From Deltaproteobacteria bacterium (GTDB taxonomy: Bacteria; Desulfobacterota; Binatia; DP-6): 37,666 nt of DNA. This document shows positions 29,351 to 37,368 of this stretch, piece after piece. The notes under the pieces are model-generated. The model had not been told where the DNA came from. It searched no databases and was given only the letters and a program-made list of their open reading frames with translations. The stretch's first letter is position 1. Every line of letters starts with the position of its first letter. A program made the position numbers and the translations under genes. The stretch covers positions 1 to 37,666 of the forward strand of contig VBKJ01000138.1 in assembly GCA_005879795.1 (NCBI GenBank), given 5' to 3'.

Positions 29351-30663
<1,313 letters not shown>

Positions 30664-36822: not shown

Positions 36823-37368
36823 TCACGGGAGCGCATCGAGGCACGCCCAGATGCGTTCGTCCGGCGGATGATCAGCGGGATGCTCGTTGCGGTGCGCGAA
36901 GCGCACGATCCCCTCCCGGTCGATCACGAACGCGCCGGACATCTGGTACACGTTACCGGACCTGGGCAGCGAGACCTCGCGCAGGCGTGTCAGCACGGTC
37001 CACAGCCCCGTCACCAGGCTCGGCCCGAAGAGCTGCCGGAGGCCCACCTTCTGGAGCCCGAAGGCCGCGTATGCGGGCTCGCCCGGGTAGTCGACGAGGC
37101 ACGTGAACGGGACCTCGTGCGCCGCGCAGAACTCGCGCGAATGCTCGGGCGTGCCCGTCGTCACCGCAAAGCAGCGCACGGGCCTCTGCTCGTAGCCCGC
37201 GCGCGCGCGGCGCAACTGCGCCACGTGATCGTGGCAGGCGATTCAGCCGTAGTGGCGGAGGAAGAAGAGGACAGCCGGCTGCCCGGCGGCGAGCGCACGC
37301 AGCTTCGCGGCGGTGCCGTCAGTGTGGAGTAGCTTCACGTCCGGTGCGGGCGCGCCGACCGCGACCAT
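36823..37368 (-). CDS. peroxiredoxin-like (AhpC/TSA_2) protein, candidate selenoprotein with in-frame UGA
   Basis: Read from ATG 37368, the frame gives a thioredoxin-fold start (VGAPAPDVKLLHTDGT, then PAVLFFLRHYG), an in-frame TGA at codon 42 (37245-37243), then IACHDHVAQLRRARAGYEQ and a complete C-terminal part of the AhpC/TSA_2 family (FAVTTGTPEHSREFCAAHEV, GAFVIDREGIVRFAHRN, ADHPPDE). The TGA sits at the position of the catalytic Cys in the family's CxxC motif, giving UxxC (U42, C45). The total would be 181 residues, a normal family length. A candidate SECIS stem follows. If UGA is not decoded, only a useless fragment from GTG 37224 would remain. A TGC-to-TGA sequencing error or nonsense mutation is the alternative. 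Confidence 0.8.
37206..37225 (-). promoter_or_regulatory. candidate bacterial SECIS stem-loop
   Basis: On the minus strand CGTGGCGC (37225-37218) pairs with GCGCCGCG (37213-37206), 8 bp including one G-U pair, around the tetraloop AGUU. The loop begins 25 bases after the UGA, within the 16-37 base window expected of bacterial SECIS elements, and has a G in its second position as the model requires. It lies inside coding sequence, as bacterial SECIS elements do. SelB binding is not shown. Confidence 0.5.

Follow-up and report, generated by a model that had tools for sequence, protein, structure and literature searches.

A SelL-related, peroxiredoxin-like gene whose in-frame UGA almost certainly encodes selenocysteine, from a genome assembly in which selA, selB and selD were not found

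Does the TGA that interrupts a protein-like reading frame on the minus strand of the window (the whole stretch of DNA that was analysed, 37,666 nucleotides) end translation, or does it encode selenocysteine (Sec), as a sequence-only reading of this DNA had proposed? Our analysis favours the latter: the UGA almost certainly encodes Sec in a redox active site, as judged from the conserved TGA column, the Cys homologues, a SECIS-like hairpin, the tRNA-Sec of this genome (G000) and selA, selB and selD in its relatives. With high confidence, we predict the product to be a thioredoxin-fold oxidoreductase of the SelL-related/PRXL2-like group, with a UxxC active site whose first residue is Sec. The features on which this reading turns are the following:

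36823..37368, minus strand: predicted CDS of a 181-residue SelL-related/peroxiredoxin-like selenoprotein, terminal stop included, from frame and homology
37243..37245, minus strand: in-frame TGA, residue 42, predicted to be read as selenocysteine; the column is TGA in 27 distinct loci and Cys in 82 others
37234..37236, minus strand: TGC codon for Cys45, second half of UxxC, at the place that the peroxidatic Cys takes in aligned PrxQ-type enzymes
37206..37225, minus strand: bacterial-SECIS-like stem-loop CGTGGCGC-AGTT-GCGCCGCG, fitting the bSECIS model of PMC13188914

The frame begins with an ATG at 37368-37366 and ends with a terminal TGA at 36825-36823, and its read-through translation (MVAVGAPAPDVKLLHTDG...VLFFLRHYG-U-IACHDHVAQL...LDALP) has 181 residues and a single internal TGA. 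PF00578 matches this protein over residues 4-157 at 62.7 bits (gathering threshold 26), so that homology runs across the TGA, and PF13911 matches it at 50.9 bits; the proposed fit to an AhpC/TSA-type family is thus upheld. If the TGA is not recoded, no in-frame ORF is longer than the 133 aa from the GTG at 37224, and plain annotation would indeed miss the first 48 residues, as had been anticipated.

Across 193 related genomes searched for homologues, a TGA aligns with residue 42 in 27 distinct loci (counting the query), always in a context of the type F-x-R-H-x-[GA]-U-x-x-C, save for one locus in which the second Cys is missing, and the other TGA-form loci share 26 to 55% identity with the query. 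The same column holds Cys (TGC or TGT) in 82 loci from many phyla. Among the loci covering it, no residue besides Cys or Sec occurs at this column, which is invariant for the pair in both alignments made; the Cys set was, however, mostly picked by a contig scan with Cys codon patterns, which returns Cys forms only, and its uniformity is therefore no evidence by itself. What does count as evidence is that TGA and Cys fall on precisely the same column. Two expectations of the sequence-only reading, that homologues would carry Cys or Sec at this position and that the UGA falls precisely on the first position of a CxxC to give UxxC, are borne out, the latter with exact coordinates.

The closest homologue (G060, 55% identity) shares 21/41 residues with the query upstream of the TGA and 78/139 downstream, i.e. 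conservation is equal on either side, and codon position 3 is the most variable on both flanks. Together with the PF00578 match, this confirms that the frame is protein-like on both sides. The recurrence of TGA at this column in 27 distinct loci shows that the internal TGA is not there by chance, and with 26 loci besides the query carrying it, a one-off sequencing error does not account for it. The TGA-form homologues also vary: one (L036) is without the second Cys (UxxA), another (L039, G005:C143) has an apparent frameshift past the active site, and two (L024 and L037) extend into a C-terminal short-chain-dehydrogenase-like domain, in an apparent fusion of ~500 residues in total.

The hairpin that follows the UGA has an 8 bp stem and a 4 nt loop, AGTT, with the apical loop at 37217-37214, 25 nt after the UGA, and a G at loop position 2. 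The bSECIS model calls for a 4-16 bp stem, a 3-9 nt loop, 16-37 nt from UGA to loop and a G within the first two loop positions (PMC13188914), and the query hairpin agrees with it in every respect. Taken alone, this hairpin is not significant, with a shuffle z of -1.24, and 5.9% of synonymous recodings match it, which is likewise not significant for a single gene; the case for a SECIS element consequently rests on conservation across homologues. A hairpin whose first two loop positions include a G is found in 27/27 TGA forms vs 40/82 Cys forms (Fisher P about 1e-7, from a test that took 28 TGA rows, with the G060 locus entered twice). Moreover, in 26/27 TGA forms the loop has one of two registers, starting at nucleotide 25 or 29 when numbered from the U of UGA. 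Cys forms are slightly less GC-rich (57% vs 62% in TGA forms), and this partly explains the difference in hairpin stability, but it leaves the fixed place of the loop unexplained. In each of the 12 AGTT-class members, the loop codons are CAG TTG; TTG makes up 3/98 Leu codons in three window genes, the query gene among them.

Is the genome equipped to read such a codon? The sequence-only reading had tied its case to selA, selB, selC and selD, and here the outcome is divided. A tRNA-Sec with anticodon UCA is present (C162:23266-23356, 81.4 bits, more than in any other genome listed), adjoining neither selA nor selB, whereas profile searches of the assembly, rated 99.56% complete, returned no selA, selB or selD above cut-off. 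The selB candidates, none over cut-off, have the appearance of other translation GTPases: an EF-Tu-sized frame on C127 beside an EF-G-sized one, LepA-like frames on C200 and an IF-2-sized frame. The selD model matched a ThiL-like ORF and a PurL-sized ORF, both under cut-off.

Relatives offer an explanation. selA is found in 24/27 TGA-form genomes (the exceptions are G000, G068 and G126), and genomes of the same family have all three genes: selA-selB-selD form one operon in G003, G005 and G006, and a contig of G002 begins inside selD; in a further member of the family, G001, selA and selB were also not found. G003 carries, in this order, leucyl aminopeptidase, CCA-transferase-like and alcohol-dehydrogenase-like genes followed by selA, selB and selD, the flanking genes being what we take them to be from their sequences. 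Contig C157 of G000 carries the leucyl aminopeptidase gene (L163) and the three preceding genes in the relatives' order, and it ends at base 30159 within that gene, the match reaching residue 354/490 at base 30155. The CCA-transferase gene has no match at all in G000, and for the alcohol dehydrogenase gene a close orthologue was not found there, only distant paralogues. Considering that the contig is cut at leucyl aminopeptidase and that both intervening orthologues are missing as well, the simplest reading of this synteny is that the sel operon likely lies in an assembly gap past the end of C157, which explains its absence better than loss would. A PPIase match on the same contig, flagged with a TGA, is an ordinary ORF end.

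Elsewhere, G060 has selA and selD, with no clear tRNA-Sec in its assembly, which is 87% complete (the best candidate has 84 nt and scores 48.5 bits). The selD genes L064, L065 and L067 (of G032, G034 and G005) carry an internal TGA, so that selenophosphate synthetase is itself apparently a selenoprotein in these genomes.

A search of G000 with PF02627 brought up three AhpD/CMD-like genes in which an in-frame TGA takes the place of the second Cys of CxxC:

G000:C195:4737-4979: AhpD-like TGA gene (L169), PF02627
G000:C222:5034-5228: AhpD-like TGA gene (L170), PF02627
G000:C97:6346-6540: AhpD-like TGA gene (L172), PF02627

Their motifs read DCHY-U, GCVF-U and QCFY-U, respectively, the motif Cys being the second letter in each. 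Judging by these motifs, the three CxxU genes are probably further selenoproteins, and CMD-like CxxU proteins stand in published lists of selenoproteins.

How, then, do other accounts of the locus fare? One could argue that the Sec machinery has truly been lost in this lineage and that the gene is a recent relic in which UGA now terminates translation, as the missing selA, selB and selD would suggest, all the more so with selA and selB missing from G001 too. We consider this quite unlikely: the tRNA-Sec is intact and top-scoring, the three CxxU genes are open except for their TGA, both halves of the query gene are equally conserved, and the neighbourhood of the sel operon is cut by a contig end, with its other genes gone as well. 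That an organism without SelA, SelB and SelD should keep its tRNA-Sec functional, along with four or more UGA genes of the Sec type, and have Sec inserted by other proteins, strikes us as extremely improbable.

That an ordinary Cys gene has suffered a nonsense mutation or was misread in sequencing is hardly more credible; MAG assemblies do contain errors, and Cys homologues with TGC/TGT exist, but the recurrence of TGA at the identical column in 26 other loci of related genomes refutes this in practice. An open frame by itself cannot separate Sec from another residue, and UGA might accordingly be decoded as some other amino acid through suppression or an altered code; yet TGA also terminates the query gene, the column always holds Cys where it does not hold TGA, and a tRNA-Sec with the matching anticodon is present, making this an even fainter prospect. 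Least probable of all is that the true product is the 133-residue protein, which has in its favour that it is the longest ORF obtainable without recoding; it would be without its first beta strands and its active site, and homology and equal conservation reach across the TGA to residue 1.

If the UGA is indeed read as Sec, SelB bound to the hairpin would deliver Sec-tRNA to it. From what is known of the family, the U42 selenolate, situated at the N-terminus of the active-site helix, would then attack a peroxide or disulfide substrate, Cys45 would resolve the intermediate as a Se-S bond, and a thioredoxin-type partner would reduce that bond. The predicted substrate may thus be a peroxide, a disulfide or another hydroperoxide. 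None of the genes neighbouring the query in the window was found beside its homologues at the loci examined.

The locus offers a selenoprotein with good support, one cut short by plain gene calling, in an organism that appears to be a Sec user despite an assembly without selA, selB and selD, and which surveys of Sec use by presence or absence would mis-score. In this sense the selenoprotein is hidden, as had been claimed; the family and its Sec forms, on the other hand, are already catalogued. The query is a valid new example of an already known type of selenoprotein, and since the family itself is known, the understanding of selenoproteins is unchanged.

Placing the protein among its relatives, the best-fitting named family is NF040769 (NCBIfam, SelL-related redox protein), which matches residues 7-176 at 136.8 bits (cut-off 120). 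The model also picks up each of the 23 homologues aligned (E <= 0.001), and several relatives, the closest included (113.3 bits), fall just below the cut-off; no mention of NF040769 was found in the literature searched. The AlphaFold2 model (pLDDT 91.1), in which residue 42 directly precedes helix 43-54, finds its best fold matches in peroxiredoxins and prostamide synthase. It is on this fold, NF040769 and the CxxC alignment with prostamide synthase that the reading as a UxxC thiol:disulfide or peroxide oxidoreductase is based.

Calling the protein peroxiredoxin-like is right only in a broad sense, as U42 occupies the first position of a thioredoxin-type CxxC. PrxQ/BCP and AhpE peroxiredoxins share the fold (Foldseek E down to 2e-10), and the classical peroxiredoxin signature is TxxC (PxxxTxxC), in which Thr precedes the peroxidatic Cys by three residues. 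In PrxQ-type enzymes, the Cys of TxxC aligns with Cys45 of the query and the Thr with U42; position 42 here being Sec or Cys, and not Thr, the Sec does not coincide with the classical peroxidatic Cys, which is a correction to the sequence-only reading. Among solved structures, the best sequence match (3.1e-19) is human prostamide/prostaglandin F synthase (PDB 9us9), which has the same fold and a CxxC that aligns with U42 and C45; it carries Cys, not Sec, and at ~20% identity the substrate need not be common. Fish SelL has two Sec close together (PMC3316567), in contrast to the single Sec of the query. Prx-like thiol:disulfide oxidoreductase selenoproteins with PF00578, UxxC and many Cys homologues have been described (PMC13188914), and Prx-like 1 belongs to the Global Ocean Sampling selenoprotein set (PMC2398784); published lists further include redoxin PF08534 UxxC, cd02970 and AhpD-like CxxU selenoproteins. 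Sec in place of a redox Cys in peroxiredoxin-like proteins is thus a known pattern, as had been stated, and, compared by description, the query shares PF00578, UxxC and many Cys homologues with the published Prx-like selenoproteins.
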